A DNA stretch of 64,000 bases from positions 31,165 to 95,164 of IMG/VR virus record IMGVR_UViG_3300025010_000040, one strand, 5' to 3'. Every line of letters starts with the position of its first letter. The stretch's first letter is position 1. The DNA is from a virus. Made by a program: the position numbers and the translations under genes. Shown in pieces: positions 3,343 to 63,876 of the stretch. The notes beneath the pieces were generated by a model. That model was not told the origin of the DNA. It saw nothing but the letters and a program-made list of their open reading frames with translations, and did not search any database.

Positions 3343-3361
3343 AAAAAGGGGCTGTTTTATA

Positions 3362-19045: not shown

Positions 19046-19431
19046 AATTTTTTAGCCCCAACATATAGTAATATATGTTAAAAACTTCTTTAATTGTCGG
19101 GGAAGCTCTTAGAGCCTAAAACTACTAAATTAATATAGTAATATATTAATGGCTTGGACTAATCAACCAAGGTATAGTAATAAGGTTTTAGGATTGGGTG
19201 ATCCGCAGCTAAGATTCCTGTATACAGGAATAAAGTTCAACGACTATCCCATGGATCTAAAATGATCATTAGGAGTAGGGCTCAAGTGAGTGGGTGAAAA
19301 TCCCTTAAATCGAAATAGGAGACTCCTTATTATTTAATAATAAGGATGAAGATATAGTCTAGTATCCTAAGGAAATCTTAGGGAAGTTCATAAGAGAACT
19401 GCATAGATTAACGACCTATGTGAATATATCG
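19046..19431 (+). ncRNA. Group I intron in terminase gene
   Basis: A 386 nt self-splicing intron without an ORF. P1 forms between exon end GGGGU and intron GCCCC (19054-19058), with a U-G pair at the splice site. P7 is GACTAT (19242-19247) with ATAGTC (19354-19359), preceded by the typical AAGATATAGTC. It ends in G at 19431. The joined exons give an unbroken terminase. Its sequence is closely related to the other introns in the window, most clearly to the portal intron, which has the same length. Confidence 0.88.
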
Positions 19432-23493: not shown

Positions 23494-23543
23494 TAATCAA
23501 TGAGAACAATTAAATAAAAAAATTCACAAGGAGGTTGAATACT

Positions 23544-26725: not shown

Positions 26726-27111
26726 CGATATATTCACATAGGTCGTTAATCTATGCAGTTCTCTTATGAACTTCCTTATCTTTTGATAAGATACTAGACT
26801 ATATCTTCATCCTTATTATTTCTAATAAGGAGCTCTCCACTTCGATTTAAGGGATTCTCACCCACTCACTTGAGCCCTACTCCTGTTGATCATTTCAGAT
26901 CCAATGGGATAGTCGTTGAACCTTTCTCATAGTAATACTATGAGACTTGGCTGCGGATCATCTAATCTTAAACATTATTACCTTACTCAGGTTAATTACT
27001 CCTGACCACTTATACCATCGCTAATATAGTTTGGTAGTTTAAGATTTAAAGGCTTCCCCGACAATTAAAAGAGAATTGGTATTATAGATTGCTCTATAAC
27101 CTGACTAATAA
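26726..27111 (-). ncRNA. Group I intron in portal gene
   Basis: A 386 nt intron without an ORF. P1 pairs exon CUGAU with intron GUCAG, and P7 GACTAT with ATAGTC. It ends in G at 26726. It is a close relative of the terminase intron, in the opposite orientation 7.3 kb away. Splicing joins INEAD to YAKTLVMA; unspliced, the frame stops 16 bases into the intron. Confidence 0.88.
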
Positions 27112-29610: not shown

Positions 29611-30165
29611 TTATACTACAAGTTTATTAATATAATAACTATTAACATCATTAATATCAATAATTAATTTACTCTTAGGTTTAATATTTAATTCCTCTTT
29701 TATAATAGAGTCTATTTCTTCTAACTTAGGAAGATTGAAAAATGCATGACCTAAACTATTCAAATCACCAGTTAACATATTATCTACAAATATTTTTCCT
29801 ATATCTTCTTTCTTACCCTTATCATCAATATCTTCAATATAATTAGGTAACTCTTTATTAGTTTCTATAATTAATTTACCTATCATAGAATTTGGTTCAA
29901 TATTAAAACAAATAATAATACTTGGATACATAGCAGAAAAATCCATATCAATAATATTATCAAATATAAATTTACTTTTTTTACCTAAAATTTCAATACC
30001 AACATGTGAGTTTAATAATGGATTAGCAACTAGTGCTCCTGCAAATTTTTCATCTTCTTCTTCCTCATTATTTTTAACTGATTCTACACCATATTGAATA
30101 TTATTGTTATTACCTATTATTAAACCTTGTTTATAAAATTCTATATATGCACGATTTTTTAAGAA
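29611..30165 (-). CDS. DNA polymerase B N-terminal part, exon 2
   Basis: Residues 418-601 of the spliced product. It starts FLKNRAYIEFYKQG and contains polymerase motif A, DMDFSAMYPSII, near residue 493. It then stops about 100 residues later (YYINKLVV). Motif B (KxxxNxxYG) and motif C (YGDTDS) are absent, so this gene cannot make a complete active polymerase by itself. The stop is followed directly by the ribosome binding site of the next gene, so no further exon is evident here. Confidence 0.85.
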   Translation of the reverse strand, partial: FLKNRAYIEFYKQGLIIGNNNNIQYGVESVKNNEEEEDEKFAGALVANPLLNSHVGIEILGKKSKFIFDNIIDMDFSAMYPSIIICFNIEPNSMIGKLIIETNKELPNYIEDIDDKGKKEDIGKIFVDNMLTGDLNSLGHAFFNLPKLEEIDSIIKEELNIKPKSKLIIDINDVNSYYINKLVV

Positions 30166-31272
30166 CGTATTATTCACATAGGTCGTTAGTCTATGCAGTT
30201 CTCTTATGAACTTCCTTATCTTTCAATAAGATACCAGACTATATCATTAACCTAATAATTTCTTATTGGGCTACTTCCTATTTCGATTTAAGGGATTTTC
30301 ACCCACTCACTTGAGCCCTACTCCTAATGATCATTTCAGACCCAATGGGATAGTCGTTGAACCTTTTACCTTTTTTCGTATTCTGTCAATAACATTTCTG
30401 ACGGCGTCATTATTTTTTAAAAATAATTTTTCTTTGATTTCTTTATTACTAAATCCCATTTTAATTAAAGAAATTATTTCTTCCTTTAATTCAATAGGAT
30501 ATTTTAGAGTAAAGTTAAAATCTTTTTTGGGTGGGAACTCATATTTTTTTGTTACATGTCTCCAAAATTTTTTATAATATAACTCTGTAATATATGACTG
30601 GCTTAAATCATATTTCAATGAAAGTTCTTTTGTAGTTTTCCCTTTCACTAAATCATTACAGATTGATATGATTAATTTTTTAGGATATTTATTAAAATGA
30701 CTCCGTTCCCCAATACAGGTTAAACCAATATCCCTAGCATGTATAGAATTATCTTTATGAGTTGACCATTCCAAATTATTAGAATAATTATTTTTTACAT
30801 TACCGTCTTTATGATTAACTACTGGAAGATTATCGGGATTGGGAATAAACGCTTTTGCGACTAATCTGCTAATTTGTCTTCTATATTGAATACCATTTAT
30901 ATATAAATTAACATATTCCCGTTTATTTTTAAATTCATTATTTTTTAATATTCTTCCAGAAACAGAATTTCTAACTCTACCAAGATCGCTAATTAAATAT
31001 TTAGTTTTAATATTATTAATTATAATCGGTCTAAAAAATTCAACATTAACTTTCATATTTTTCACCCTTTCTTTTTATTAGCGTCTAAAGAGTTTAAAAG
31101 GAATTTTGGCTGCGGATTACTCAATCCTAAAACCTTATTACTATACCTTAGTTAATTAGACTAAGCCATTAATATATCACTATATTAACTTAGTAGTTTT
31201 AGGCTCTAAGAGCTTCCCCGACAATTAAAGAAGTTTTCTATATATGTTACCACATATAGGGTCTAATAATTA
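30166..31272 (-). ncRNA. Group I intron with HNH gene in DNA polymerase
   Basis: A 1107 nt intron. P1 pairs exon GGUU with intron GACC, with a U-G pair at the splice site, and P7 is GACTAT/ATAGTC. It ends in G at 30166. Splicing joins VFRQTV to FLKNRAYIEF in frame. It carries an HNH endonuclease gene (30331-31056) whose 3' end overlaps the catalytic core. The last 117 nt examined (30173-30289) are identical to the partial intron at the right edge of the window. Confidence 0.88.
30331..31056 (-). CDS. Intron-encoded HNH homing endonuclease (NUMOD4-type)
   Basis: A 241 aa homing endonuclease. The N-terminal NUMOD4-like segment (KTKYLISDLGRVRNSVSGRILK) is followed by the HNH core LVAKAFIPNPDNLPVVNHKDGNVKNNY, then NLEWSTHKDN, then a C-terminal helix-turn-helix-like DNA-binding part (TTKELSLKYDLSQSYITEL). 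It would cut intronless alleles of the polymerase gene to spread the intron. Start ATG 31056 with AAAGGGTG upstream. The last codons lie in the intron core (GTTCAACGACTAT), so protein and ribozyme sequence overlap. Confidence 0.87.
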   Translation of the reverse strand: MKVNVEFFRPIIINNIKTKYLISDLGRVRNSVSGRILKNNEFKNKREYVNLYINGIQYRRQISRLVAKAFIPNPDNLPVVNHKDGNVKNNYSNNLEWSTHKDNSIHARDIGLTCIGERSHFNKYPKKLIISICNDLVKGKTTKELSLKYDLSQSYITELYYKKFWRHVTKKYEFPPKKDFNFTLKYPIELKEEIISLIKMGFSNKEIKEKLFLKNNDAVRNVIDRIRKKVKGSTTIPLGLK

Positions 31273-32523
31273 AACCGTTTGTCTGAATACTTTTTTATAA
31301 GTTGTTGCATTGGTATAAGAACGTTGATAAACATTATCAATATCGTTAACCTTCCTTTCAATACCTAATTGAAGTAAAACATCTTTAATATTATACATAA
31401 CAAATTTCTTATAATTTCTGTATGGTAAAGTTTTAATATTACCATCTTCAGCATAATCTAATTTTTTATCACTAATCTCTTTTTCTGCAACATAAGTAAG
31501 AGCATTGGAACGTAGTTCTGATCCTCCTTTTCGTAAACTCGCATACACTATCATTTGGTCTAAGAAAACAGTATAAGAAGATATTTTAAAATAGTCTCCT
31601 TTATTTGCTACTTTAAAGTTTCTCATATCCTTTACAAACATTAGTTCTTTTATGTTAAAATCAGGATGACACATTACCTCTTTTGGGTCTAAATCTAACT
31701 CTTTCATCCTAGCTATCATATACGGTACATCAAATCCGATATTCCATATCATTAGAAAATCTCGTTTAAGAGTATTTATTAATTTAAATGTATCTATTAG
31801 TAATTCACTTTCATCCTCATACATATAAATATTGTAATTTAGTTTCCCATATGATTCATCAAATGTATTATGAAGTTCTTCAATAAAATTATCTATATCT
31901 TTTTTAAATTCTTCTATTTGAGGATTATTTTCATTTTCTAAAAGAAAAGTAAAACAAGTATTAGTTGTTTCATCTATTAAAGTAATTGCATTGATAGGGC
32001 ATTCACCATCTTTAGGGAATCCAACTACTTCTATTGAATCAACCTCAATATCAAGATATGTTTTAGTTATAGGTTTAGGTTTATCATTATGATAATTTAA
32101 TAACCATTGTATTCTATACCAATTTTCAATATTATAATCTGAACCAAATACATATCTATATTTATGTAAATTATTAATAGCATATCTATTTCTGGTTTCT
32201 ATCTTTTGTTTAATATAAGTTAAATATTCTTCACCAGCTTGTTTAGCTATATAAAAAGGTAAGTCTTTATATTTGGCTCGGTGACATTCAGTTTCGTTTA
32301 AAGGACTAAATGATTTATTATGTTGAAAGTTTTTAAATTCTTCTTTTGTAAAATAAATTTCCATTTCAGGCTCATCTATAGTTAATATATGTTTCTCTCC
32401 AGTAGTTAAATCTTTATAAATAATGTCAAGACTGTCTTTATACTTTCTTTCCTTATTAGGATAATGATAAATTGTTTCTAAAAACATTATGTTATTACTT
32501 TTTATTTTTCCGAGAAAATTCAT
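31273..32523 (-). CDS. DNA polymerase B N-terminal part, exon 1 (exonuclease domain)
   Basis: Residues 1-417 of a family B replicative polymerase, T4 gp43-like. It contains the 3'-5' exonuclease: Exo I YLDIEVDS near residue 155, Exo II WNIGFDVPYM near 260-268, and Exo III YNIKDVLLQLG near 378-388. The acidic residues are intact, so proofreading should work. With exon 2 the product is 601 aa, against about 900 for T4 gp43; the rest of the palm and the thumb must come from another gene outside this window. The start has GGTGGTG upstream. Confidence 0.87.
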
Positions 32524-40233: not shown

Positions 40234-40560
40234 CTAATTTGAAATACTTCTAGAAATATAATCTATTTTTTTCAATTCCTTAGATGTTTTATTTAAAATG
40301 ACACTAATCCCATAAATAATATCAGATGAATTTAATAAAAAGGCTTTAACATCACGACTCTTAGATAAATCTACCATTAAAATATCTTTATCAAAATGTA
40401 ACGGTAACGAATCACTCCATGCTATATTATATCCATCATCATTTTTACAGACAGAAATAGGAACAGGGCTATTTATTACAAAATTACCAACAAGTGTGTG
40501 AGTAACTTTTAATAATTCTAATAAATTCTCAGCAGCTTTAATTATATTTTCATTTACCAT
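40234..40560 (-). CDS. Hypothetical protein, 108 aa
   Basis: No recognised family. Helical N-terminus (NENIIKAAENLLELLKV), a beta-rich middle and a Lys/Ser-rich end. AGGGGGT precedes the ATG. It follows the YopX-like gene closely, so they are co-transcribed. Confidence 0.6.
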   Translation of the reverse strand: MVNENIIKAAENLLELLKVTHTLVGNFVINSPVPISVCKNDDGYNIAWSDSLPLHFDKDILMVDLSKSRDVKAFLLNSSDIIYGISVILNKTSKELKKIDYISRSISN

Positions 40561-40569
40561 GGTGACCCC

Positions 40570-40881
40570 CTAATTTAAATTTAGTCTATTATTTTGATAT
40601 ATATTACCAACAATTTCACAAATTGAATTAACATCTTTTAATTGATAGCCTGCATAAAAGATACCATCTTTAAAAGTCACTGGTTTAATAGTTTCTTCTT
40701 TTTCTGAAAAGAAATTTTTATATTTCACTAAAAATCCACTATAAATTTTTTTACCATTTTTATCCCGTAATCCAGTATATAAAAGTTTCTTATGACTATC
40801 TGGGTTTAAAGTTAAACCTCTTCTTATATCAATAATTCTACCATCACAAGTTATTACACATTTATCTTTTTTCATATTCAT
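40570..40881 (-). CDS. YopX-like domain protein, 103 aa
   Basis: Residues 30-97 show the YopX pattern: LLYTGLRDKNGKKIYSGFLV early, and CEIVGNIYQNNRL at the end. YopX-type proteins are common in Gram-positive phages and plasmids; their function is unknown. There is no clear ribosome binding site near the first ATG, so the second Met (40875) is possible. Confidence 0.7.
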   Translation of the reverse strand: MNMKKDKCVITCDGRIIDIRRGLTLNPDSHKKLLYTGLRDKNGKKIYSGFLVKYKNFFSEKEETIKPVTFKDGIFYAGYQLKDVNSICEIVGNIYQNNRLNLN

Positions 40882-40933
40882 TTTTATTTATATACCAAAT
40901 AAGGAATTCAATATTCAAAATAAAGAACCTCCT

Positions 40934-41212
40934 TTATTCAACCGGAATTAAAATTACTGCTGGTATACCTCTAGGTTTATCGGGACATAAATCTTTCTCA
41001 GAAAACCCCTGTGCAATTAACTTATCCGACAATTTTCTGATATATATCCCACCAGAAGTTTTAGTAGTTTTATCAGGTAAATAAATACATTTTTTTATTT
41101 TTTCCAGTGGTTTTATATTCTCGGTACTTCTAGGATTGTTTCCTATGACAAGTATATCATTGTCATTGTAAGGTTTTAGTAATTTAATTAAATCTTTTTT
41201 TCTTATATACAT
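40934..41212 (-). CDS. Hypothetical protein, 92 aa
   Basis: Not recognised. Small basic protein with a Pro/Gly-rich C-terminus (CPDKPRGIPAVILIPVE). I place the start at MYIRKKDLIK (41212), since GGGGG lies just before it and overlaps the earlier ATG. Confidence 0.58.
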   Translation of the reverse strand: MYIRKKDLIKLLKPYNDNDILVIGNNPRSTENIKPLEKIKKCIYLPDKTTKTSGGIYIRKLSDKLIAQGFSEKDLCPDKPRGIPAVILIPVE

Positions 41213-41231
41213 ATTTTTTACCCCCATAAAT

Positions 41232-41666
41232 TTATTTTATTGAACTATTATATATACTAAAAACCTCTTTTACAATTTTATCAACTGTAGGAGAATTAAT
41301 TCTATTACAACTAAATTCAATTTCATATTCATCAGTAACTGGAATTTCTTTTAATTCTTTTTTATTACTGAAAATACTTAAAAATATGTTATGGTCTGTT
41401 CGTGTATTTTCTAAAATCATTGTATATCTTTTTGCATGATAAATATGTTTCTCTAAAAATCTACAAAAATATATTTTACTGGAAAAATAATCCCCTGTAG
41501 TAAAGTCTTTCATATTCTTTGCATATATAACTCTATTCTTTTCTAAATCTAAATACCAAAAATACTCAGTATTATCATTTAGAGGATAAATTCTCCAATC
41601 TTCTTTATAACCAAAATATTTATATATTAATTCCTGTAACTTAAAATATTTATCAAGTAATTTCAT
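41232..41666 (-). CDS. Hypothetical protein, 144 aa
   Basis: No family found. Aromatic-rich N-terminal half (YFKLQELIYKYFGYKEDW), then an alpha/beta C-terminus. AGGAGG stands directly before the ATG. Part of the - strand accessory run. Confidence 0.6.
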   Translation of the reverse strand: MKLLDKYFKLQELIYKYFGYKEDWRIYPLNDNTEYFWYLDLEKNRVIYAKNMKDFTTGDYFSSKIYFCRFLEKHIYHAKRYTMILENTRTDHNIFLSIFSNKKELKEIPVTDEYEIEFSCNRINSPTVDKIVKEVFSIYNSSIK

Positions 41667-41684
41667 TTTTCCTCCTCATTTAAC

Positions 41685-41837
41685 TTATATTTTAATATCA
41701 ATAACTAAACCACCATTACTATTTTCAGATGGTTTTTTATCCTTTTTTTTCTTTTTCTTTTCTACTTTCTTTTGAAACTTTTCTAACATATCAAATACAT
41801 CATCAATACAGAAATTATCAACGTCTATTTTAGCCAT
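41685..41837 (-). CDS. Small Lys-rich protein, 50 aa
   Basis: Start at MAKIDVDNFC (41837) because AAGGAGATG precedes it. An acidic N-terminal half is followed by a run of lysines (KVEKKKKKKDKKPSEN) and a short hydrophobic tail. It may bind nucleic acid. A promoter-like element lies 33 bases upstream. Confidence 0.55.
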   Translation of the reverse strand: MAKIDVDNFCIDDVFDMLEKFQKKVEKKKKKKDKKPSENSNGGLVIDIKI

Positions 41838-41869
41838 ATAAAACATCTCCTTTTTTATTTTATTTAAAT

Positions 41870-41882
41870 AATAATATATATT
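41870..41882 (-). promoter_or_regulatory. Candidate promoter element (AATAATATATATT)
   Basis: On the - strand it reads AATATATATTATT, 33 bases before the start codon at 41837. It is part of a longer near-repeat shared with 42648-42692, reading on into TTTTGTTGTTGAAATAATAA on the + strand. Confidence 0.5.
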
Positions 41883-41909
41883 CATATATGATTTTGTTGT
41901 TGAAATAAT

Positions 41910-41940
41910 AAAAAATAAAATCCAATAATTATTGGATTTT
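41910..41940 (-). terminator. Terminator (- strand)
   Basis: Palindromic stem AAAATCCAATAATTATTGGATTTT followed on the - strand by TATTTTTTATT. It ends the transcript of the gene at 41958 and is directly followed by the promoter-like element of the next gene. Confidence 0.82.
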
Positions 41941-41957
41941 ATTATATAATAAAATAA

Positions 41958-42608
41958 TTAATATTTCTCTAATAACTTACTAAATTTATTAACTAATAAT
42001 AAGGATAAATCTTCATCCTTTAAGTTAATGTTATTAGCCTCTTTGCCAAATAAATAAATTAAACGTGTGATACCAAACTCAGAAACCAATGAAGTTATTT
42101 TTTCTTTACTTTTTATTGATAAAGGAATTTTTATTTCTTTTTCAAATAAATTAAAAAATATCTCATCCTCTTTAGAAGGAGTATAGTACAGTCCATGAAT
42201 TGCCCAGTTTCTAACTATAGAAACAAAATAACCAAAAGTCTGTTTTTTCTCATCATCTTTTCTAGAAAATACATCTATGGCCGCTTCTAAATATTTAATA
42301 GGGTTAAGCTTACGTGAAGTAAGATAAAAATATAATTCTTTTATACCCTTAACTTCAATATCATGTTCATGAATATTTGGGGATATATTTTTCCTATAAT
42401 AATTTATTAAATGGTCTATTTCAGTACCAACTTTATCAACTTTATTCTGAGTATTATTTTTTGTCTGCATTCTACTCCATGCTGACCTAACTGTAGTGAT
42501 AAGTATATTCTTATCTTTTGAGAATTTCTTTAAACCATCCAATTTGTCATCTTCAACATATTTAATTAATTCATTTTTTAAATCATTCGTCCAATTAATA
42601 CGTTTCAT
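41958..42608 (-). CDS. Putative DNA-binding protein, 216 aa
   Basis: The N-terminal 50 residues (RINWTNDLKNELIKYVEDDK ... VRSAWSRMQ) look like a Myb/SANT-like or helix-turn-helix domain with its conserved tryptophans. Residues 100-150 (YLEAAIDVFSRKDDEKKQTF and then VRNWAIHGL) recall the DnaD-type replication-protein tail, but weakly. No function can be fixed. AGGAGATG precedes the ATG, and it is a single-gene unit with its own promoter-like element and terminator. Confidence 0.6.
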   Translation of the reverse strand: MKRINWTNDLKNELIKYVEDDKLDGLKKFSKDKNILITTVRSAWSRMQTKNNTQNKVDKVGTEIDHLINYYRKNISPNIHEHDIEVKGIKELYFYLTSRKLNPIKYLEAAIDVFSRKDDEKKQTFGYFVSIVRNWAIHGLYYTPSKEDEIFFNLFEKEIKIPLSIKSKEKITSLVSEFGITRLIYLFGKEANNINLKDEDLSLLLVNKFSKLLEKY

Positions 42609-42647
42609 TATCTACATCTCCTATTGTATTTTTAAATGAATTATATA

Positions 42648-42660
42648 AATAATATATATT
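42648..42660 (-). promoter_or_regulatory. Candidate promoter element (AATAATATATATT)
   Basis: Second copy of the long repeat unit; the 13-mer is exact and lies 39 bases before the start at 42608. Confidence 0.5.
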
Positions 42661-42692
42661 CATATATAATTTTGTTGTTGAAATAATAAAAA

Positions 42693-42724
42693 AATAAATC
42701 TAAGAAATTAATCTTAGATTTATT
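42693..42724 (-). terminator. Terminator (- strand), copy 1 of a repeated hairpin
   Basis: Stem AATAAATCTAAG/CTTAGATTTATT with loop AAATTAAT, followed on the - strand by TTTTTTATT. The same hairpin including the loop recurs at 43398-43429. Confidence 0.82.
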
Positions 42725-42731
42725 AAATTAA

Positions 42732-43346
42732 TTATATTTTTTCATGAAATTCTAAAACGGGTCTCCAACCAATATCAATTGATGAATATGCTGGCGGACA
42801 ATTAAAATAACCTAAGTTTTCACCATAACCATTAAATGAATATGTTGACCTTGGTTGAGAAAACATATTTGGTAACTTTTGACACCATGAATAAATATAA
42901 AGCCACTTTTTTAGTTCAGATTTATTAGAATTATTTTTTATAACTTCATCTATTTCAGGTATATTAAATTCATCAGGATCAAGTTTTTCACTACCATTCA
43001 TCATTAGTCTAAGTTTAGAATGTGGTAATGCTGAGCTAATATTAATAATTTTTTCACCATATACTAATCCATGTTCATGAAGGGTATCTATTGATATATT
43101 GATTAAAATAACTCTATCACATATTAAGATTTTTTTATAACCATTTTTAATAACATGCCATTTTAATTTATCCTGTTCATCAGACTCTAAGTTTCCAATT
43201 GTCCATTTAGACATATCAGGTAATGTTAAAAAGTCTGATATATCACTCTCTTCCCCTTTTTCAATCCATGGTCTCTTTGGTAAAGGTTGAATAACACCAT
43301 CTCTTAATAGTACACCTAAATTAGTAATTCCATGATATTCTAACAT
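42732..43346 (-). CDS. Hypothetical protein, 204 aa
   Basis: No family assigned. The C-terminus ends in GWRPVLEFHEKI, an ending also found in several unrelated phage proteins of Gram-positive hosts. The protein looks globular with a helical middle. AGGGGGTG precedes the ATG. Confidence 0.6.
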   Translation of the reverse strand: MLEYHGITNLGVLLRDGVIQPLPKRPWIEKGEESDISDFLTLPDMSKWTIGNLESDEQDKLKWHVIKNGYKKILICDRVILINISIDTLHEHGLVYGEKIINISSALPHSKLRLMMNGSEKLDPDEFNIPEIDEVIKNNSNKSELKKWLYIYSWCQKLPNMFSQPRSTYSFNGYGENLGYFNCPPAYSSIDIGWRPVLEFHEKI

Positions 43347-43397
43347 TTTACACCCCCTAAATATTTTTTTATTATTTATGTTATTTAAATAATAAAA

Positions 43398-43429
43398 AAT
43401 AAATCTAAGAAATTAATCTTAGATTTATT
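43398..43429 (-). terminator. Terminator (- strand), copy 2 of a repeated hairpin
   Basis: Identical in stem and loop to 42693-42724, now after the gene at 43439. Followed on the - strand by ATTTTTTATT. Confidence 0.82.
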
Positions 43430-43438
43430 AAATATAAA

Positions 43439-43918
43439 TTAAGTAATTTTATTATTAGCCGCTAATAAATACATTATTACATTTGCAGTAATTTCAGGGT
43501 CTTCAATATTAAACCCAGTTATTAATTCTATAGTTTCCATATAGTTTTTAAAATAAAAGTATTCTAAAAACTTAATTGCTTTTTTAGTAAATTCTTCTTC
43601 ATTTAATTTACTAACATTTTTCCAATTACGAATAATAACTTCAACAGTACGTTCAGGTTGATAATTTTCTGTTCCGAACCCACCATACCAACCTGAAGTT
43701 AAATAAGCAACTAAACCGGCAAATGAACTAGTTTTAATATTTTTAATTCCAGGATACTTTACAATTGAATAATAAAGAGCATTATTTAAAACAGAATTTC
43801 CATGTTCTTTATCTTCATTAATATTAGTACATTCTTTAGAATTTAATAAATTCAATACTTTATTTTCTTCAGTGGGATTATCAAAATATTTTAAAATAAT
43901 ATCTTCATTTAATAACAT
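43439..43918 (-). CDS. Hypothetical protein, 159 aa
   Basis: Not recognised. Mostly helical, with a Gly/Tyr-rich turn near residue 75 (GWYGGFGTENYQPERT). AAGGGGTTG precedes the ATG. It is the third gene of the operon headed by the PurZ-like gene, 20 bases after the previous one. Confidence 0.6.
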   Translation of the reverse strand: MLLNEDIILKYFDNPTEENKVLNLLNSKECTNINEDKEHGNSVLNNALYYSIVKYPGIKNIKTSSFAGLVAYLTSGWYGGFGTENYQPERTVEVIIRNWKNVSKLNEEEFTKKAIKFLEYFYFKNYMETIELITGFNIEDPEITANVIMYLLAANNKIT

Positions 43919-43938
43919 TATTAAAACAACCCCTTTTT

Positions 43939-44283
43939 TTAGTTTAAAGTACCTTTAATTTTTTCAATAAATATTTCAGCATCAACTAATAAGTCCTTTC
44001 TTAATTTAGCAAAAGAATTATTACGACCTATATTATACATATTTAATAATTCAGCTATAATCACTTTTTCTGATCTGTTATCAATATTCAGATTTTTAAC
44101 GGACTTTTCTAAATTAAGGAATAATTGGGAATATTCTGGATTATTTTTAAGTGTTACTTCAATATAATTTTTACTATTTAACTTCCCAATACAACCATCT
44201 AAATCATATTCATCAGGAATAAAGACATATAAGTATTCATCATTTTCATCAAATTCTTTATATAAAACCAATCCTTCCATCAT
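43939..44283 (-). CDS. Hypothetical protein next to PurZ-like gene, 114 aa
   Basis: No known family. Acidic, alpha/beta. The start is ATG 44283 (MMEGLVLYKEF region) because AAAGGAG lies just before; the ORF continues upstream without a site. It is 18 bases after the PurZ-like gene and so is co-transcribed with it, which makes it a candidate helper of purine metabolism, but nothing in the sequence shows this. Confidence 0.6.
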   Translation of the reverse strand: MMEGLVLYKEFDENDEYLYVFIPDEYDLDGCIGKLNSKNYIEVTLKNNPEYSQLFLNLEKSVKNLNIDNRSEKVIIAELLNMYNIGRNNSFAKLRKDLLVDAEIFIEKIKGTLN

Positions 44284-44301
44284 TAACACTCCTTTCATAT
44301 A

Positions 44302-45315
44302 CTATAATTCAATTAAAGTTTTTTTACCTGTACCAATATAATTAATCTTACAATTTATTTGGATTTCAAATTTTTGTATATACCTTTTAATAATATCCGA
44401 CACTACATCCGCCGATTCATTACATGTATAATCAATATAATCTAAATGATTCATAACAACTATATTTGGTTTGTTTACCATTATTGCTCTCTTAACAAGA
44501 TCTGCATCAAACTTACCAACTCTTCTTTTTCTTAATGTAGCTGATGTATATTCAGTTAAATCAATGTCGGACCCATATATAGGTAGTCTTTCCCATGATA
44601 TTTCATTTTCTAATGGACCTGAATTACCTCCAACTCTTATTGGAAAAGCTCGAATAACCATAATAATATTTTCGACATCAAATGGACTCATTCCAGATTC
44701 CATTAAAAATCCTGCCGCAGTTGTATCTCTGCTAGTACAATATGGGTAATTTTTAGAATGAATTGGTGATAAGTCGAACCCCTGTGTACCCTCAATAATA
44801 ACATGTTTACCTTCATCTAAAAGGCCTCTTAAATATGTTTTTGTATCACAAATATATTTTTTTATACAAGCACAATCTTTAGCAAAAGTTATATTAGATG
44901 TTCTTTTCAACCTTTGGATAACGGCTTGTCCTGTCCCACTTTCAGTAGAACCAATACTAAGCTGTAATCTATCTTCTCTTTCACTTATTTTCATACATTC
45001 ATCAATAATAACTGCAAATGGGTCTATTTTAAGATTATTGTTTTTAACCTGTGTTTTATTTATTTCTTGAAATAAAATACCCAAATCAATATACGAACCA
45101 CTAGGCAGTATACTAACAATATTTTCATCAATAGAAACAGTAGGTAAAATTCTTAATACAAACTCACCTTTATTTTCATCGACAACAATATGACCAGAGT
45201 TAGTCCCACCTACACGTACAACAGCAGAAGCTTTTAATTTCTGTGAGAAAAAATATGATACCTTTCCTTTACCCTCAGAACCATACTGCCCACCTACTAT
45301 AATAGAGATTGGCAT
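44302..45315 (-). CDS. purZ: PurZ-like 2-aminodeoxyadenylosuccinate synthetase
   Basis: A 337 aa member of the adenylosuccinate synthetase family. Cellular PurA joins aspartate to IMP; PurZ of Z-genome phages joins aspartate to dGMP on the path to 2-aminoadenine. The P-loop reads GSEGKGK, with Ser13 where PurA has its catalytic Asp13. The family His (NSGH, His42), EGTQG near 173, YPYCTSRDTTAAGF near 186-200, PIRVGGNSG near 223 and NHLDYID near 290 are all present. As I recall the known PurZ of Vibrio phage phiVC8, it shares the Ser in the P-loop, PYCTSRD and PIRVGG. It is shorter than PurA (about 430 aa), as PurZ is. GGGAGGT precedes the ATG. A PurA-like or other substrate use cannot be excluded from sequence alone. 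Confidence 0.88.
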   Translation of the reverse strand: MPISIIVGGQYGSEGKGKVSYFFSQKLKASAVVRVGGTNSGHIVVDENKGEFVLRILPTVSIDENIVSILPSGSYIDLGILFQEINKTQVKNNNLKIDPFAVIIDECMKISEREDRLQLSIGSTESGTGQAVIQRLKRTSNITFAKDCACIKKYICDTKTYLRGLLDEGKHVIIEGTQGFDLSPIHSKNYPYCTSRDTTAAGFLMESGMSPFDVENIIMVIRAFPIRVGGNSGPLENEISWERLPIYGSDIDLTEYTSATLRKRRVGKFDADLVKRAIMVNKPNIVVMNHLDYIDYTCNESADVVSDIIKRYIQKFEIQINCKINYIGTGKKTLIEL

Positions 45316-45393
45316 CTAGATACCTCCCTTTAATATATTAATACCTTTTAATACCATAAAAAATTTTATATGGTATTAAAATATAAAAACATA

Positions 45394-46113
45394 TTATTTA
45401 TTTTTTTCTTCTTTATCCCATGTAAAATAAATATTATATAATAAATCTACTTCTTCTTCACTTAATACTTCCCATCTACTTCTTTGTAATTTAGAAACCA
45501 TGTTTCTATAACACTTATCATTTTCTTTACACATATCGTCAGCTGTATCAATATCATCAATAATTTTCCATAAATGATATAGTTTTTCCCGATTATTAAG
45601 TGCTAAACAAATATCTTTAGCTTGATCAGGACTTTTACATTCGATTATTAAGTTATCATGTTCATCATAAATGTTATTAACATAATTCTTACCAACAACA
45701 TATTTACAAATTTTATTATCTATAAACCTTCCTTTACCTTTAATCAAATCTTTAATACATGTATACCTATAATTTAATTCTTTTCTTATTTCATAACATC
45801 TATTATTAATTTTAGAAAATATATCTTCCCACTTCTTATCGTACTCATATTTACTATTTTCATAACTATTTATAACTAAGGCGAGTTCACGTATAAGAAG
45901 TTGTATTTGTTCATTAGCTGGTATAATGGTATAAATATTTATTAAAGGAATTTTAGATTCATCATTTTCTTCAGGAAAAGTTGTATGTGCATAACAATAT
46001 TTAAAACTATTTAAGGGTTCATTAACAAATTGAACAACTACATTAATATCAGGATACAATTCTGTCATAACCTTATTTACAGTTTCAAACGGGTCATTAA
46101 CAATTTTTATCAT
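45394..46113 (-). CDS. Degenerate zincin-like protein upstream of purZ, 239 aa
   Basis: No function assigned. Residues 75-105 follow the pattern of phage-type small zincins, which read roughly LLxHELAHVxxxxxx..W..xFxxI. Here the motif is LLIRELALVINSYENSKYEY then KKWEDIFSKI, with both zinc histidines replaced (RELAL for HELAH). If homologous it should lack peptidase activity and may act as a binding protein. ATG 46113 is chosen for the AAAGGAGG just upstream; it overlaps the end of the previous gene by 17 bases. Confidence 0.6.
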   Translation of the reverse strand: MIKIVNDPFETVNKVMTELYPDINVVVQFVNEPLNSFKYCYAHTTFPEENDESKIPLINIYTIIPANEQIQLLIRELALVINSYENSKYEYDKKWEDIFSKINNRCYEIRKELNYRYTCIKDLIKGKGRFIDNKICKYVVGKNYVNNIYDEHDNLIIECKSPDQAKDICLALNNREKLYHLWKIIDDIDTADDMCKENDKCYRNMVSKLQRSRWEVLSEEEVDLLYNIYFTWDKEEKNK

Positions 46114-47038
46114 TACAATTTCCTCCTTTATTTTTGTTATATTCATGAAGATACTTAGCATTGTTTTTAGTAAGAGAAATTAATTGTCTAAAATTTTCTT
46201 TAGCTTTAAGATAATTTTCTCTTAATAATTGAAGTCTTTTCCATTTATCTTCATTCCATCCAAACTTTTTATTAAATTCTTTAAAAAATTCTAATTCACT
46301 ACATTCATCATCAGTATCTTTACAATCCCAACCACAAATAATCCCATAAATCCAGGCATCCTCTTTACATTCACTAAAATCTTTAGAACTAAATGATATT
46401 GTACGCTCTAAAGATTCAAAAGGGTTTTCATTAAGAGTTAAATCATCAATAGAACTAGCAAGAATATTAAGTTCCTCAGGATACATTTTAACATCTCTCC
46501 TTATTACAGATATTTTAATTTTTTCTTCTGTTATTATACCGTCTTCTAAAAGATTATGCAGTTTATCAAGATCGACATCTTCTTTCTGAACTTTAACTTG
46601 AATCCAATTTGGTTCATGTTTTCTATAGTCAAGAAAGGTTTTAGGCTCTTTACCTAAAACTTTTTTAAACATTTCTACAACCCTTTCACCAGCTGCCTTA
46701 CATTTAACAAATCCAGCAAGATCATAGCCAACCCCTCTTGATGAAAACCATTCTCCACCATTTTCAGGAGGGTTATCAGGTCTTACATAAGGGTGTGAGG
46801 GTATACCTTTTCTTGGATGTTCTTGTAAATTTGGATATATTGGTGGAGAACCGAAACCTATACAAGATTCTTTCACTCCGTCTGATAAAACTACAAAGAA
46901 TCCATCACATTCACCACATTTTACAGGATGTGAACCACCACCTGAAATAACAGTACCATAACAATACTCACATCCACAATGTACACAACCATATTGTTTA
47001 AAATTAGATGCACTTACAGCAATAATTTCATTACTCAT
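46097..47038 (-). CDS. Zinc-ribbon protein of unknown function, 313 aa
   Basis: The N-terminal 50 residues have CVHCGCEYC and CGEC, enough for a zinc ribbon. This is followed by a conserved-looking segment HPRKGIPSHPYVRPDNPPEN and SSRGVGYDLAGFVKCKAAGE, then a charged helical C-terminal half. I cannot name the family. Start at MSNEIIAVSA (47038) with AAGGAGATG upstream. The 3' end overlaps the next start, so translation is coupled. Confidence 0.62.
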   Translation of the reverse strand: MSNEIIAVSASNFKQYGCVHCGCEYCYGTVISGGGSHPVKCGECDGFFVVLSDGVKESCIGFGSPPIYPNLQEHPRKGIPSHPYVRPDNPPENGGEWFSSRGVGYDLAGFVKCKAAGERVVEMFKKVLGKEPKTFLDYRKHEPNWIQVKVQKEDVDLDKLHNLLEDGIITEEKIKISVIRRDVKMYPEELNILASSIDDLTLNENPFESLERTISFSSKDFSECKEDAWIYGIICGWDCKDTDDECSELEFFKEFNKKFGWNEDKWKRLQLLRENYLKAKENFRQLISLTKNNAKYLHEYNKNKGGNCNDKNC

Positions 47039-47058
47039 TATATCCATCTCCTTAAATT

Positions 47059-47406
47059 TTATACATAATTTTTTCTTTTTAATTGTTTCTGTTTAGCAAC
47101 ATTTATTCCATTAACATCATCCATCAGTAGTACTAATCCTAATATTCTAATTAGATTTCCAAGGTTTTCCCCTTTCCATAAATATAATCTAACATCATGT
47201 ATTTTATTACTGTTATCAGTTAATTTCATTTCAAGCTCTATATTTTCCGTAAAAAAGTTAAATATCTTGTTTAACTCAGAAATCGAATCAGTAACTAATA
47301 GATCATACTCCAATAAACTTTCTAATTCCCCATGACCATAAATACCAGATAAGTTATGATAATTATCATTACACAAAACATTCTTATGATTAACACTATA
47401 TAACAT
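47059..47406 (-). CDS. Hypothetical protein, 115 aa
   Basis: Not recognised. A hydrophobic stretch near residue 80-92 (NLIRILGLVLLMDDV) is too short and polar at the end for a firm membrane call; the C-terminus is Lys-rich. AAAGAGG precedes the ATG. Confidence 0.58.
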   Translation of the reverse strand: MLYSVNHKNVLCNDNYHNLSGIYGHGELESLLEYDLLVTDSISELNKIFNFFTENIELEMKLTDNSNKIHDVRLYLWKGENLGNLIRILGLVLLMDDVNGINVAKQKQLKRKNYV

Positions 47407-47426
47407 TTTTATTACCTCTTTATAAA

Positions 47427-48014
47427 TTAATCAATAACTTTAAAATCATAAAACACAAGATATTTATCAATACAAGTTGTAAAATCAGTTTTAATAATTT
47501 TACCATATGACCATTCTAAACAAATGTGTTTATCCATTTCAATAAAACCTTTTACTTTACAAAAAATATGGCTTAGATACCTAATAAAATCATTAAAAAG
47601 ATTTATTGGAGCATTAGGATGAGTATACTCAATCACTATTCCAGTACCAATAGATTTTTTTAATATTACATAAAAATCTGGATTAATAATAGGAAAAAAG
47701 TAAGGATGAGGATGGTCTCGTCCCTCAATAATAATTAACTTTTTAGATATATCTATAGTTCCATTAAAAATAGTTATAAAACAGGGGTAATAAATGATTT
47801 TAATATTTGGAATTTTAGAGAATTCCAAATATTTTAGTTTTGCTTCATGTGGAGTTAAAGCAATATCTAAACTAACAAATTTATTATTTTTGTCAACACA
47901 ATTTATAGTATAAAAAGTATCGTCTAATATTGTTTCTTCTGTCATATATTTCATTGAAACTGGTCGTAGTCCTAATTCCTTAATTATACTAGTGTCTTGT
48001 TGAAAATTATACAT
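47427..48014 (-). CDS. Hypothetical protein, 195 aa
   Basis: No family found. Alpha/beta protein with many aromatic residues (HPHPYFFPIINPDFYVIL near 100). AAGGAGGTG precedes the ATG, and it begins four bases after the previous gene ends, so they are one operon. Confidence 0.6.
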   Translation of the reverse strand: MYNFQQDTSIIKELGLRPVSMKYMTEETILDDTFYTINCVDKNNKFVSLDIALTPHEAKLKYLEFSKIPNIKIIYYPCFITIFNGTIDISKKLIIIEGRDHPHPYFFPIINPDFYVILKKSIGTGIVIEYTHPNAPINLFNDFIRYLSHIFCKVKGFIEMDKHICLEWSYGKIIKTDFTTCIDKYLVFYDFKVID

Positions 48015-48018
48015 TTAT

Positions 48019-48387
48019 TTACACCTCCTTGTTAGTCTTTCCTGTAATCTGTTCAAATATAATAGAAGTGCCAGTTATTTTAATAACAAATAAACTAAAA
48101 ATTCTATTACCAAATTGAATTCTAATTACATCTCTAACATCTATTTTATCTCTATTTCTAATAGAAGTAATAAAATTCGGATTAAATATTTCTTGTATAT
48201 CACCATTATCTTTTTTAACAAATAAAAGTTTATCTTTAAAATCTAATTCTTTAACTTCTTCATAAAAATCTATTACTTTTACAGCTCCACCACCTATACC
48301 ACTACTTTTACAGGCTTCAGAAATAGAAGTACCTCTAATCATTTCTACTTTACCATCTTTCCAATGTAATCTATAAATATTCATCAT
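48019..48387 (-). CDS. Hypothetical protein, 122 aa
   Basis: Function unknown. The N-terminal pattern IYRLHWKDGKVEMIRGTSIS and GIGGGAVKVIDFYEEVK resembles a small protein seen in many phages, a beta-hairpin plus Gly-rich turn; that module has no known role. GAGGAGA precedes the ATGATG start. Confidence 0.62.
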   Translation of the reverse strand: MMNIYRLHWKDGKVEMIRGTSISEACKSSGIGGGAVKVIDFYEEVKELDFKDKLLFVKKDNGDIQEIFNPNFITSIRNRDKIDVRDVIRIQFGNRIFSLFVIKITGTSIIFEQITGKTNKEV

Positions 48388-51541: not shown

Positions 51542-51925
51542 CATAATGTTCATATAGATAGTTAATCTATACAGTTCTCCTATGAACTTCCCTAAGCTTT
51601 CCTTAGGATATCAGACTATATCACCATCTCTATATAATAATATTTAATATAGAGAGTTACCTATTTCGATTTAAGGGATTTTCACCCACTCACTTGAGCC
51701 CTACTCCTAATGCTTATTTCAAAGCTAAAGGATAGTCGTTGAACTTTATTCTTATATATAATAAGAATCTTAGCTGCGGATCACTCAATCTTTTACCTTG
51801 TTACCATACCCTAGATAGTTAGTCTAAGCCATTATATTATTACTAATATAACTTGGTAGTAAAAGCTCTAAGAACTTCCCCGACAATTAAAGTAATTTTC
51901 ATTATAGATTATTCCATAATGTCCC
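51542..51925 (-). ncRNA. Group I intron 2 in RNA polymerase beta (N half)
   Basis: A 384 nt intron without an ORF, with the same core as the others (GACTAT/ATAGTC P7, GATCCGCAGC, CTCAAGTGAGTGGGTG). The 3' end G is 51542. Joining ...RNVKS to GTSGIVTPF keeps the frame. The P1 pairing I can draw is weaker (UCU with GGA) than for the other introns, so the 5' site is the least certain of the set. Confidence 0.8.
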
Positions 51926-60077: not shown

Positions 60078-61066
60078 TTATATTTTAATATCAATAACAA
60101 ATTTTCCTTCATTAAATTTCCTTTTTTCAATCTCATCATCTATAAGTTTTTCAAAATCTCTTTTAGTTCCAACAAATACTTTATTTTCTTTATATTCATT
60201 AGTAATGTCAATTCTTCTTTTAATATCTTCAAATTTTTTATTATCAGTTAAGAAGAACTTTCCATTATAAAATTTACCTTCAAGATGTCCAGTATTAATC
60301 TTTATATCAAATAGGTCATTATTAAATTCTATACCTAATCCCATTGATTTTAAAAATACCGATAATATTTCAATATTTCTATTTTTAAAATTTGCTTTAT
60401 ACTTAAAATCTTTTATAGGATTTAATCTTGTCATTAAATTTTTACCTAAATCACGTCTACCTATAACTGATGACCTATAGAATAGATGTAGTTGAGCTAT
60501 TAGTTCAGTTGGAACCCCTATATTAGTATTAAGATTTTCATCAATACCTATTCTTATAGGAGTTTTAGAATAAAGTTCCTGGTGAGTTTTAGCTTTATTA
60601 GATTTTTCAGGTAATCCTTTTCTTGATAAAGTTCCAGTTGATCTAGCTGAAAAACCTTTCTTAGCTGTTTGCATTAATTTCATTACATACATATCTCCAA
60701 CTATTAATTTCTTCATCATTTTAATCTTTCTACCAAATCTATTTACATAAACATCATATTGTTCAATCCAATCATGTTCTTCATATAATTTAATAAGTTT
60801 ATCAAATAAGAATTCCTCTTCCCATAAAGGAGGTATATGAATAAATATACCTTCTTCAACTAAATTATTGAAAAATTCTTCCTTACCAATGATACTCAAT
60901 TTTCTTAAATATTCTCTTAACTTTTCTTCCTGGTCTTTATTAAAATAACTTATTATATTAAGAAACAAATCTTCTTTTTCTTTCATATTAGTCAGTGTTT
61001 GAATACGGTCCACTGTTCTATTGCATATAAACGTAATTGATTGTTCAAAAAGCTGGTATGAGTTTA
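60078..61066 (-). CDS. RNA polymerase beta, C-terminal half, exon 3
   Basis: The last 329 codons of the 750 aa product. It begins LNSYQLFEQSITFICNRTV, the counterpart of RMNIGQ in bacterial beta, and includes MKLMQTAKKGFSARSTGTLS and the following conserved clamp/switch region, then ends FVIDIKI. Confidence 0.85.
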
Positions 61067-61367
61067 CAATTGTTTTAGACCATATCTTCAGTCCTATAAA
61101 GAACTGCCTCCCGTTTCGGGTTTCCCCTACTCTACTCGCTTCTTCAGTTATAGATAAATTATAACTTATGCTTTCGATGGCCGTTGAGCACATTTCAAAT
61201 ATTACTATTTGAAACTTCGCTGCGGATTACTCAATTTTAAACCTTTTTACCATATCTGAGTAGTTACTTCAGCCCTTATCTATGTCACCATGATAAGTTG
61301 GTAGTTTAAAATTATCGAACTTTCCCGCAATTAGAGAGGTTTTAGATCGCCTAAACCTTACCAGTCC
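61067..61367 (-). ncRNA. Divergent group I intron in RNA polymerase beta (C half)
   Basis: A 301 nt intron, clearly different from the others outside the core. P1 is perfect: exon AUCGCU with intron GGCGAU, including the U-G pair. P7 is GGCCAT/ATGGTC, a compensatory change from GACTAT/ATAGTC of the other introns. It ends in G at 61067. It is the only phase-1 insertion: it splits a Leu codon between INR and NSYQLFE. Confidence 0.87.
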
Positions 61368-61482
61368 AGCGATTGATTACAGATATTGAATTAAATAGAA
61401 TATCAACACGCTCTCCAGTTTCTAAGAATGGCATTTCATTATCAGGTAATATTTTTGATATAACACCTTTATTACCATATCT
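61368..61482 (-). CDS. RNA polymerase beta, C-terminal half, exon 2 (115 nt)
   Basis: A 38-codon-plus-one-base exon. It encodes [20 protein letters not shown], then [18 protein letters not shown]. This is the active-site segment of beta (GRxGNKGVIS...DMPF...VDIxxNPLGVPSR in bacteria). It is flanked by two introns. Confidence 0.88.
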
Positions 61483-61812
61483 CGTTAAATTCACATAGAT
61501 CGTTAATCTATGCAGTTCTCTTATGAACTTCCCTAAGTTTCCTTAGGATACTAGACTATATCTTCATCCTTATATAAATAATATCTATATAAGGAGCTCT
61601 CCATTTCGATTTAAGGGAATCTCACTTGAGCCCTACTCCTAATGCTTATTTCAAAGCTAAAGGATAGTCGTTGAACTTTATTCCTCATTATAAGGAATCT
61701 TAGCTGCGGATTACTCAATCTTTTTATTATATAATAAAAAGCTCTAAGAGCTTCCCCGACAATTAAAGTAATTTTCTATATATGTTACCATATATAGGGG
61801 CTAAGCTACATA
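61483..61812 (-). ncRNA. Group I intron 1 in RNA polymerase beta (C half)
   Basis: A 330 nt intron without an ORF. P1 pairs exon GGGU with intron GCCC; P7 GACTAT/ATAGTC; it ends in G at 61483. It is shorter than its relatives because part of the CTCACCCACTCACTTGAG segment and the P2-side extension are missing. Splicing joins GQKITG to RYGNKGVIS. Confidence 0.87.
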
Positions 61813-62961
61813 ACCCGTTATTTTTTGCCCTACTTCTAAATAAGCATTTTTTTCAACTAAAAATTCTATTACTATATTAGAAAATACCGAGTTATTTTCT
61901 TCTCTCCACTTATACTTTTCATCTAATATATTCTTAGCTTTTCTCATATAAAAACTAACTTCTCTAGAATATTTAGAACCAGAATCAATTATCTGTTTAC
62001 ATCTTTTAAATATCTTCTCATAATAAACTAATTGCATTTTATAATATTTCATTATTTGTCTATTAAAATCATTTTCTTCTAATTCATCTAAAGTTTTATT
62101 ACAATAGATATCTATATCAATAATTTTACCTTTACCCTCAATAAAGAATAATACATCTGAAGTAAAATCAATCTTTCTAAGATTAGATTTCTTTAAATCA
62201 TATAACAATTGATTGTTATGAATTCTTCTCTTAGCACAAATTACCTTATCTTTAACATATTCATTTATATCAGGAAAAGTTTTATAATTATTACTATTGC
62301 CATAAATATTACAAAATATATCATTATCATTTAAAGAAACTTTAACTCTTTCAACTTCTGTTGAAACCATTCTTTTTGATAATGACTCAGAACAAACAAT
62401 AGCATCTTCAATAGTATTATTTTCTAAAAGGTACATAAATTTAACATTAGTACCATAACAATAATTCATATCATCATCATAAGATGTACTCTTATAAAGA
62501 ACTTCGCCTTTATTTATTGAATTACCAACTTCTTTATTATCAATATTATTGGTATTATACTTAAAACCATATCTTTCTGTTAAGTCTTCTACAGATTTCT
62601 TTTCTATAATATCATATTTATCATTTTCTTTATCATATACAAATAATAAATAAAATTGTTCTTCATTTTTATCATCTGTAAATTTACTTATTTTATCAAT
62701 AATAACACAATTATTTTTAACCTTTTTGAAACCAGTAGAATTCTTACCTACTATATTCTCATAATTAGTAAAAATTCTTGGAAACTCAGGTTCATTTAAA
62801 GTAACACATTGTTTCAAATGAGCAGTAAACATAACATTCCTTGATGAACTAATATATCCTGGATTAGTTAATAACGTCATCCCAAATATATCATCTTTAC
62901 CTTTAAATTCTTTTTCTTTCTCTTGTAGTATCTCTTTTAGTGACATTGTGGTTTTATACAA
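61813..62961 (-). CDS. RNA polymerase beta, C-terminal half, exon 1
   Basis: Residues 1-383 of a 750 aa product. It contains GYISSSRNVMFTAHLKQCV near residue 35 (bacterial beta: SRxxMxxxxQRQAV), EDAIVCSESLSKRM near 183 (bacterial: NFEDAIVISERL), and VGQKITG at the end. With the gene at 51245 it makes up one beta subunit, a split typical of phage phiKZ/AR9-type RNA polymerases. Start: TTG 62961 with AAGGAGGT; ATG 62946 is the alternative. Confidence 0.87.
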
Positions 62962-63513: not shown

Positions 63514-63861
63514 CGTATATTCACATTAGTCGTCAGCCAATGCAGTTCTCTTCTCTTATGAACTTCCTTATCTTTCGATAAGATACTAGACTATATCTTC
63601 ATCCTTAATAAATTATTTATTAAGGAGTTACCCATTTCGTAAAGAACTTTTTAAGTTCACCCTACCATTATTGACTTGTAGGTCTACTCCTCAGTCTAAA
63701 TTAGACTTCATCAGATAGTCGTTGAACCTTTCTCATAGTAATAATATGAGACTTGGCTGCGGATTACTCAATCTTTTTATTATATAATAAAAAGCTCTAA
63801 GAGCTTCCCCGACAATTAAAGTAATACTAACATAATATTACTATTATGCCACCCTAAATTT
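63514..63861 (-). ncRNA. Group I intron in recombinase gene (second)
   Basis: A 348 nt intron without an ORF. P1 pairs exon CACCU with intron GGGUG; P7 GACTAT/ATAGTC; it ends in G at 63514. Its middle (63640-63710) has diverged from the common CTCAAGTGAGTGGGTG segment, giving a different P-helix sequence. Confidence 0.85.
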
Positions 63862-63876
63862 AGGTGCATTCCCACC
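63862..63876 (-). CDS. 15-nt microexon of the recombinase (GGNAP)
   Basis: Only five codons, Gly-Gly-Asn-Ala-Pro, lie between the 3' end G (63877) of one group I intron and the 5' site of the next. The peptide matches the RecA L2/motif region GGNALKF at exactly the place needed to continue into the next exon. The last five bases (CACCT) also pair with the downstream intron in P1. Confidence 0.78.

Follow-up and report, generated by a model that had tools for sequence, protein, structure and literature searches.

In this study, we analysed a 64,000-nucleotide stretch of viral DNA (the window), which corresponds to positions 31,165 to 95,164 of the 95,164-bp IMG/VR record IMGVR_UViG_3300025010_000040 and carries on its minus strand purZ, a gene for a PurZ-like member of the adenylosuccinate synthetase family. 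The PurZ enzymes of phages phiVC8 and S-2L join aspartate to dGMP to form dSMP, from which host enzymes produce dZMP and dZTP, the nucleotides of 2-aminoadenine (Z) (PMC8342488, in part). The purZ locus comprises the following features.

44302-45315, minus strand: Ser-type adenylosuccinate synthetase homologue (PurZ-like, NSGH-type), 337 amino acids, assigned from its open reading frame (ORF), Pfam and PHROG matches, tree, residues and model
45323-45328, minus strand: Shine-Dalgarno-like GGGAGG, 7 bases 5' of the purZ ATG, read from the sequence
43939-44298, minus strand: gene directly downstream of purZ after a 3-base gap, 119 amino acids, nothing above cut-off in the family scans
45394-46161, minus strand: gene directly upstream of purZ, 255 amino acids, PHROG 23707 (function unknown), E 3.9e-6
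40234-48387, minus strand: block of small genes including purZ, defined by ORFs and by synteny with a related 234-kb phage, eight of its genes family-scanned

A preliminary description of the window had proposed a PurZ-type gene here, and its ORF was borne out with exact coordinates: it is intact on the minus strand and starts with ATG, the opposite strand being rich in stop codons. The three motifs on which that description relied, the P-loop GSEGKGK together with PYCTSRD and PIRVGGNSG, are all present in the minus-strand translation. The protein matches Pfam PF00709 (E 1.5e-50) and PHROG 1211, '2-aminooxy adenylosuccinate synthetase' (E 5.6e-69), and a 100% identical copy of the gene occurs in a 249,853-bp contig, G001 (IMG/VR 3300025000_000053). 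The G+C content of purZ is 30.8%; of the values obtained for seven other genes, five fall at 23-24% and the remaining two are 19.8% and 30.5%.

The residues of the protein were compared in an alignment of 158 proteins (80 bacterial, 58 phage and 19 PurA rows, and the window protein), using the numbering of S-2L PurZ. The replacement of the catalytic Asp of PurA by Ser, as previously claimed, is confirmed by this alignment: position 23 is Ser in the window protein, in 72 of the 80 bacterial rows (seven have Gly and one a gap) and in all 58 phage rows, whereas it is Asp in 19/19 PurA rows. Similarly, position 273 is Thr in the window protein and in 75/80 bacterial rows, in contrast to Gly in all 19 PurA rows; S23 and T273 have both been described as unique to PurZ (PMC8342488, in part). 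Asp13 to Ser, loop Gly to Thr and the separate clade of the PurA rows in the tree described below agree with the earlier view that this is not a canonical PurA, an identity ruled out by residues and tree alike. The residues of the dGMP pocket, G22, N49, T132, Q190, T205, R240, V241 and R280, are retained, and His42, Gln178, Thr194, Arg227 and Arg265 are invariant in the 23 rows aligned, the window protein keeping the catalytic residues; as judged from these alignments, nearly all of the active-site residues besides Asp13 are kept. V241, conserved in 80/80 bacterial rows and also Val in PurA, is positioned in S-2L PurZ to exclude the ribose 2'-OH (PMC8342488, in part). The NHLD motif of the window protein resembles the guanine-binding NxxD of PurA, making GTP the likely phosphate donor. 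At position 50 the window protein, 78/80 bacterial rows and nine phage rows have Ser (NSGH), and all 49 other PurZ rows have Ala, as in the NAGH of the known phage PurZ, and so have the 19 PurA rows. The AlphaFold model of the protein has a mean predicted local distance difference test score of 91.5 and an adenylosuccinate synthetase fold. Taken together, the sequence evidence identifies a real, PurZ-like member of the adenylosuccinate synthetase family that is not PurA.

Among 84,980 genomes scanned, 363 stretches encode any relative of this protein, and the best 80 of these bacterial loci, which were kept, are 41-61% identical to it over the best segment. The nearest relatives come from gut-type bacterial assemblies, the closest of them being a gene of a Fibrobacteria metagenome-assembled genome (MAG) with 61% identity. 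The known phage PurZ and PurZ0 proteins (phiVC8, S-2L, SH-Ab 15497, Ghobes and Wayne), which share the family, the Asp13 to Ser exchange and the Thr loop, are 28-35% identical. The tree was built from 86 of the 158 rows (the 72 set aside were further bacterial, phage and PurA members of the groups represented) by a quick search with Shimodaira-Hasegawa-like approximate likelihood ratio support only. A place of the gene within PurZ had been suggested in the preliminary description; however, in the tree of PurA, PurZ and PurZ0 the window protein lies outside the PurZ/PurZ0 clade and is nested among bacterial genes, and constraining it with the canonical phage PurZ/PurZ0 was rejected (approximately unbiased (AU) test, p 0.001). 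It groups with genes of Fibrobacteria, Lachnospiraceae and Oscillospiraceae (support 97, starred) within an enclosing set of 43 rows (95, starred) that holds 39 bacterial rows, three phage rows and the window protein. The eight PurA rows form one clade (100, starred) with the window protein outside it, and the known and other phage PurZ form a group of 24 rows with a support of 92, which is not starred.

The nesting of the window protein in a bacterial clade suggests that the phage acquired purZ from bacteria. A single clade of lone phage PurZ, composed of the window protein and eight of the nine NSGH-type phage rows, was rejected (AU p 4e-63). Since the NSGH-type phage rows and the window protein do not form one clade, PurZ alone has crossed more than once between bacteria and phages. 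The contigs that carry the NSGH-type phage genes range from 8 to 312 kb in length and from 29 to 62% in G+C.

The bacterial relatives mostly belong to a tightly packed operon. By cluster membership, the best 80 loci include a nuclease ORF in 73, a dCTP deaminase-like (Dcd) ORF in 76 and a deoxynucleoside kinase (dNK) ORF in 29. The Dcd cluster of 76 loci includes some opposite-strand ORFs, and the strict same-strand count is the safer one: the nuclease lies directly upstream of purZ in 66/80 and Dcd directly downstream in 61/80, all three being contiguous in 51/80. The PurZ and Dcd ORFs overlap in 37 of the 61 pairs, with a 4-base overlap as the median spacing. The Pfam families found in the operon are RNase_H_2, AAA_18, DCD and dNK (one or two examples of each were scanned). 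The 80 loci span 17 named phyla, 16 bacterial and one archaeal, with three loci lacking a named phylum and many coming from MAGs, and a full-length PurA is also present in 22/23 operon genomes tested; none was found in the 23rd, a MAG. The distribution is patchy: of 146 genomes from the Bradyrhizobium mercantei genus group, eight have a PurZ-type match, four with E values between 1e-122 and 1e-124 and the other four near 1e-95. Inspected by eye, two of the latter have a P-loop kinase domain followed by PurZ in a single ORF of 549 and 654 amino acids, with NAGH in the single sequence legible that far.

At its N-terminus, the nuclease protein has an exonuclease motif of the DEDD type (56 of 74 cases) or a PHP motif (four or five), the rest being unassigned. 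Its middle and its kinase end, which includes P-loop kinase domains, are constant across 14 aligned proteins, and the N-terminus is exchangeable. Judging by motifs, the middle may be DUF429 and an alternative N-terminus PolX-like; a Pfam scan of two of the proteins returned no match to DUF429 at E 0.1. The model of the Dcd-like protein has a dCTP deaminase-dUTPase as its closest fold (Z 17.4) and a long helical tail. It shares a short motif of the dUTPase superfamily (about 39 residues, E 3e-5, 17 sequences) with the Dut-like proteins (DutZ) of the PurZ0 phages Ghobes and Wayne, from which it differs in its overall closeness to the dCTP deaminase-dUTPase fold and in its tail. DutZ hydrolyses dATP and dGTP. 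At three planctomycete or verrucomicrobial loci viewed by eye, an AAA+-like protein of 730-870 amino acids replaces Dcd after PurZ, and one of these also encodes, on the opposite strand, a PHP-like member of the nuclease cluster.

The exchangeable modules of this operon, its patchiness and some restriction-modification neighbours suggest, from gene content, that it may be a defence system. A type I methyltransferase cluster stands beside the operon in 5/80 loci, and N6-methyltransferase-like ORFs occur at 5/80 operon loci and at 0/20 PurA control loci, a difference that is not significant alone. Among 101 operon-neighbour ORFs (from 19/20 loci), 137 PADLOC families were matched, the highest counts among the matches listed being five ORFs for mad2 and four for MTase_I, versus eight families and a top count of 1 among 101 PurA-neighbour ORFs (the first 101 of 161, from 13/20 genomes). 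However, many of the 137 models must match the same few methyltransferase genes, and the neighbour test is thus weak support only. The nuclease gave partial-length PADLOC matches to dCTPase (1.3e-8) and PDC-S44 (2.4e-6), and the kinase to VakA (2.8e-5); two bacterial PurZ proteins scanned at E 0.01 gave no match. Among the papers listed by our literature searches on PurZ with phages, defence and jumbo phages, which extend to few subscription papers, none describes or names the operon or deals with PurZ in a jumbo phage.

The phage itself belongs with large myoviruses, as can be seen from the following features of the window.

61801-62961, minus strand: RNA polymerase beta piece, a lineage marker (PBS1/AR9/LPJP1/S6-like)
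60078-61193, minus strand: RNA polymerase beta subunit piece
31270-32523, minus strand: DNA polymerase piece, PBS1-like, matching the PBS1 DNA polymerase and negative with DNA polymerase I queries
29611-30177, minus strand: DNA polymerase piece with DFSAMYPSII, presumably a family B DNA polymerase motif, matching PBS1 and separated from the other piece (31270-32523) by an intron-like repeat and an HNH-like gene
23535-25385, plus strand: tail sheath protein (myovirus), matching the PBS1 tail sheath

Positions 21485-85485 of contig G001 match the window at 99.96% identity. Of the 459 ORFs of G001, 83 have counterparts in Bacillus phage PBS1 at about 23-47% identity, including RNA polymerase, DNA polymerase, terminase, sheath and ligase. 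The RNA polymerase beta is related to those of four jumbo phages with deoxyuridine (dU) in their DNA, PBS1, AR9, S6 and LPJP1. The setting previously proposed, a large myovirus with its own RNA polymerase, therefore holds in outline, on the RNA polymerase beta pieces and the PBS1-related tail sheath. Literature searches, which extend to few subscription papers, found no described Z phage of this kind, as had also been supposed, and the term 'jumbo' does not occur in the available part of PMC12884076. G001 has its own complications: its right end (219-250 kb) is only 82-96% identical to positions 1-30.8 kb of the window's record, so G001 is apparently a chimera of two sister phages. A sister fragment of 74,946 bp (G187) is 79-90% identical, in pieces, to G001 between 74.5 and 146 kb, consistent with G001 representing the window's phage up to at least 146 kb; genes between 146 and 219 kb may belong to either sister phage.

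PBS1 has no match to the window PurZ. The related 234,335-bp phage contig (G188) has no PurZ-family gene, and its syntenic stretch holds one 222-amino-acid ORF between the flanking genes (the SbcC flank was matched by eye), so that purZ is probably accessory; G187 also lacks a purZ match and is uninformative, ending before the purZ region. Other observations concern the genome at large. Three group I introns (Rfam RF00028) lie on the minus strand around the RNA polymerase beta pieces (61057-61398, 61531-61822 and 63566-63872), and related repeats of 200-380 bases recur through G001 and, in the window, at 19081-19427, 26726-27069, 30173-30366 and 51549-51911, close to split terminase and polymerase genes. 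Between 120 and 160 kb, G001 encodes a polyphosphate kinase with four Pfam domains (best E 1.5e-67), a radical-SAM protein and two ORFs that match the anaerobic ribonucleotide reductase NrdD, and at 162550-166077 ThyX, a dCMP deaminase fusion and a thymidylate kinase in succession, unexpected for kin of dU-DNA phages. A Nudix hydrolase (3317-3796, plus strand; one Pfam NUDIX match in its scan, 1.6e-11) could in principle convert dGTP to dGMP.

Partner genes were sought among the 459 ORFs of G001. No match at E<1 was obtained with DatZ, MazZ, DutZ, the NDT-like DmtZ, PurB or four Z-phage DNA polymerases I (DpoZ) as queries. A further 182 ORFs, scanned with Pfam at E 0.001, likewise lacked any HD, MazG or DNA polymerase I family (ORFs shorter than 75 amino acids, border-crossing, already named or scanned, or beyond 225 kb were omitted). 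As a control, the partner queries give a match at 63 of the 70 canonical phage PurZ loci, each taken with flanks of up to 3 kb; by contrast, no Z partner was found within about 3 kb at any of nine NSGH-type phage loci, nor at the window. DatZ/MazZ, DutZ/DmtZ and DpoZ partners were thus not found in a genome that is incomplete and in which DUF5664 was not searched by name. Hidden Markov models of the operon Dcd and nuclease also gave nothing in G001 at E 0.1, and that of the operon kinase weakly matches the G001 thymidylate kinase (E 1e-4). As far as homology detects, the phage carries purZ without the partners of the operon or of the Z phages; the window gene shares its clade and the NSGH motif with the bacterial operon, but the usual nuclease/kinase and dCTP deaminase-fold partners are not with it.

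We consider it somewhat more probable than its opposite (roughly 0.5) that the window encodes an intact, bacterial-type PurZ-like ligase which serves dZ-nucleotide synthesis, either for counter-defence or for partial base replacement. The phage would have taken purZ from bacteria, and the enzyme, probably with GTP as donor, would join aspartate to dGMP to give dSMP; going by PurZ enzymology, host adenylosuccinate lyase would then release dZMP, which kinases would convert to dZTP. Most speculatively, the product might shield the phage against the bacterial operon, or some Z might enter the phage DNA. Phages carry lone methyltransferases derived from restriction systems, and the lone phage purZ may be likened to these.

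Several points weigh against this reading. The MAG contigs that hold the three nearest bacterial loci measure 24-76 kb (other loci are on contigs of 2-4 Mb), and some bacterially named PurZ sequences have been considered misannotated viral ones (PMC8342488, in part). That dGMP rather than GMP, IMP or another nucleotide is the substrate is deduced from few residues, and the Ser that the clade has at A50 lies in the base pocket and could alter the substrate. At the donor site, T53 is replaced by Ile and P336 by Lys, both of which contact the phosphate donor in S-2L PurZ, T53 touching the triphosphate (PMC8342488, in part). The fold of the window model is a near tie between the PurA of P. horikoshii (Z 44.1) and PurZ0 (Z 43.7), and PurA and PurZ are not told apart by the fold search. 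As the phage genome is incomplete, partners could be elsewhere in it or non-homologous, and the Nudix gene at 3317-3796 could supply dGMP. Finally, the defence role rests on modularity, patchiness and a weak restriction-modification link, which makes for a weak case.

Some of these points have been turned into other explanations. The same fold likeness, and the GTP-type NxxD motif shared with PurA, would suit a plain metabolic role, in which a PurA-like enzyme acts on IMP to form adenylosuccinate and replenishes purine nucleotides during infection; we think this improbable, since the window protein lacks the Asp and, at T273, the Gly of PurA and lies outside the PurA clade, and since a separate PurA is retained in nearly all of the genomes tested that have the bacterial gene. 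Should the Ser of the base pocket, so prevalent in the bacterial rows and replaced by Ala in the other PurZ and in PurA, alter the chemistry, the NSGH-type enzymes might use another 6-oxopurine nucleotide (e.g. GMP) to make a signal or antimetabolite, with the phage copy serving the same or an interfering purpose. The P-loop kinase domains of the operon nuclease protein and the frequent nearness of dNK fit that proposal, and the conservation of V241 speaks against it, weakly, as PurA also has Val; overall we regard it as unlikely. The donor-site exchanges and the solitary state of purZ in the phage could also point to a copy of the bacterial component that is inactive or acts as a decoy by binding the substrate or partner proteins. 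However, the frame is intact, the catalytic residues are kept, and Ile at T53 and Lys at P336 are found in 4/80 and 5/80 bacterial rows respectively, making a decoy very improbable.

The preliminary description had gone further and read the gene as the mark of a phage whose DNA may have Z in place of A. For that to be so, purZ, host enzymes and non-homologous helpers would have to substitute Z for every A in a jumbo myovirus. The PurZ-type Ser, the nucleotide genes of G001 (NrdD, thymidylate kinase and Nudix), the finding that S-2L PurZ itself can consume dATP (PMC8342488, in part) and the exchange of T for U in kindred jumbo phages, a lineage prone to base replacement (PMC8460666 and PMC12697855, each in part), are in its favour. 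On the other hand, the protein is outside the PurZ/PurZ0 clade and is NSGH instead of NAGH, homologues of the partners are missing among the ORFs searched, the phage is a PBS1-like jumbo phage with a PBS1-like polymerase and not a DpoZ/PrimPol phage, and purZ is absent from G188. These findings do not support a Z genome, which we judge to have a small chance. Full replacement of A by Z is expected to need the removal of dATP, for which no gene was seen; complete replacement in this phage is unlikely. A double replacement by Z and U was also considered and rejected: ThyX and thymidylate kinase in G001 argue against U, as does the lack of a match to the PBS1 uracil-DNA glycosylase inhibitor (Ugi; nothing at E<1 among the 459 ORFs), with the reservation that G001 is chimeric and that these genes are possibly in part a sister phage's. 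The PBS1 Dcd query matches the deaminase fusion of G001, and the genetic signs of U are mixed.

A bolder extension, which we hold to be possible and on balance doubtful, is that bacteria of many phyla run a Z-nucleotide immunity, with dZTP as a self mark or a poison and an exchangeable nuclease, and that phages steal purZ alone. PurZ, the kinases and the DutZ-like hydrolase would make dZTP, and the nuclease would act on DNA that lacks or holds Z. If this were true, the window purZ would be a stolen antidote that shares the mark, and Z chemistry would be a bacterial invention used by both sides.

The bacterial PurZ operon is a more surprising result than the Z-genome reading, which is a minor possibility. 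So far, the biosynthesis of 2-aminoadenine has been regarded as a property of phages, with one origin of PurZ, and the available part of PMC12884076 reports only four archaeal sequences beside phage PurZ. In our analysis, the same kind of enzyme with the key residue change turns up in one archaeal and 16 bacterial phyla, mostly as part of a compact operon and in addition to a separate PurA. This makes testable whether bacteria synthesize dZ nucleotides, for what purpose, and where the phage pathway originated, and the window purZ is a concrete candidate for a counter-measure gene in a lineage of giant phages known for the replacement of T by U.
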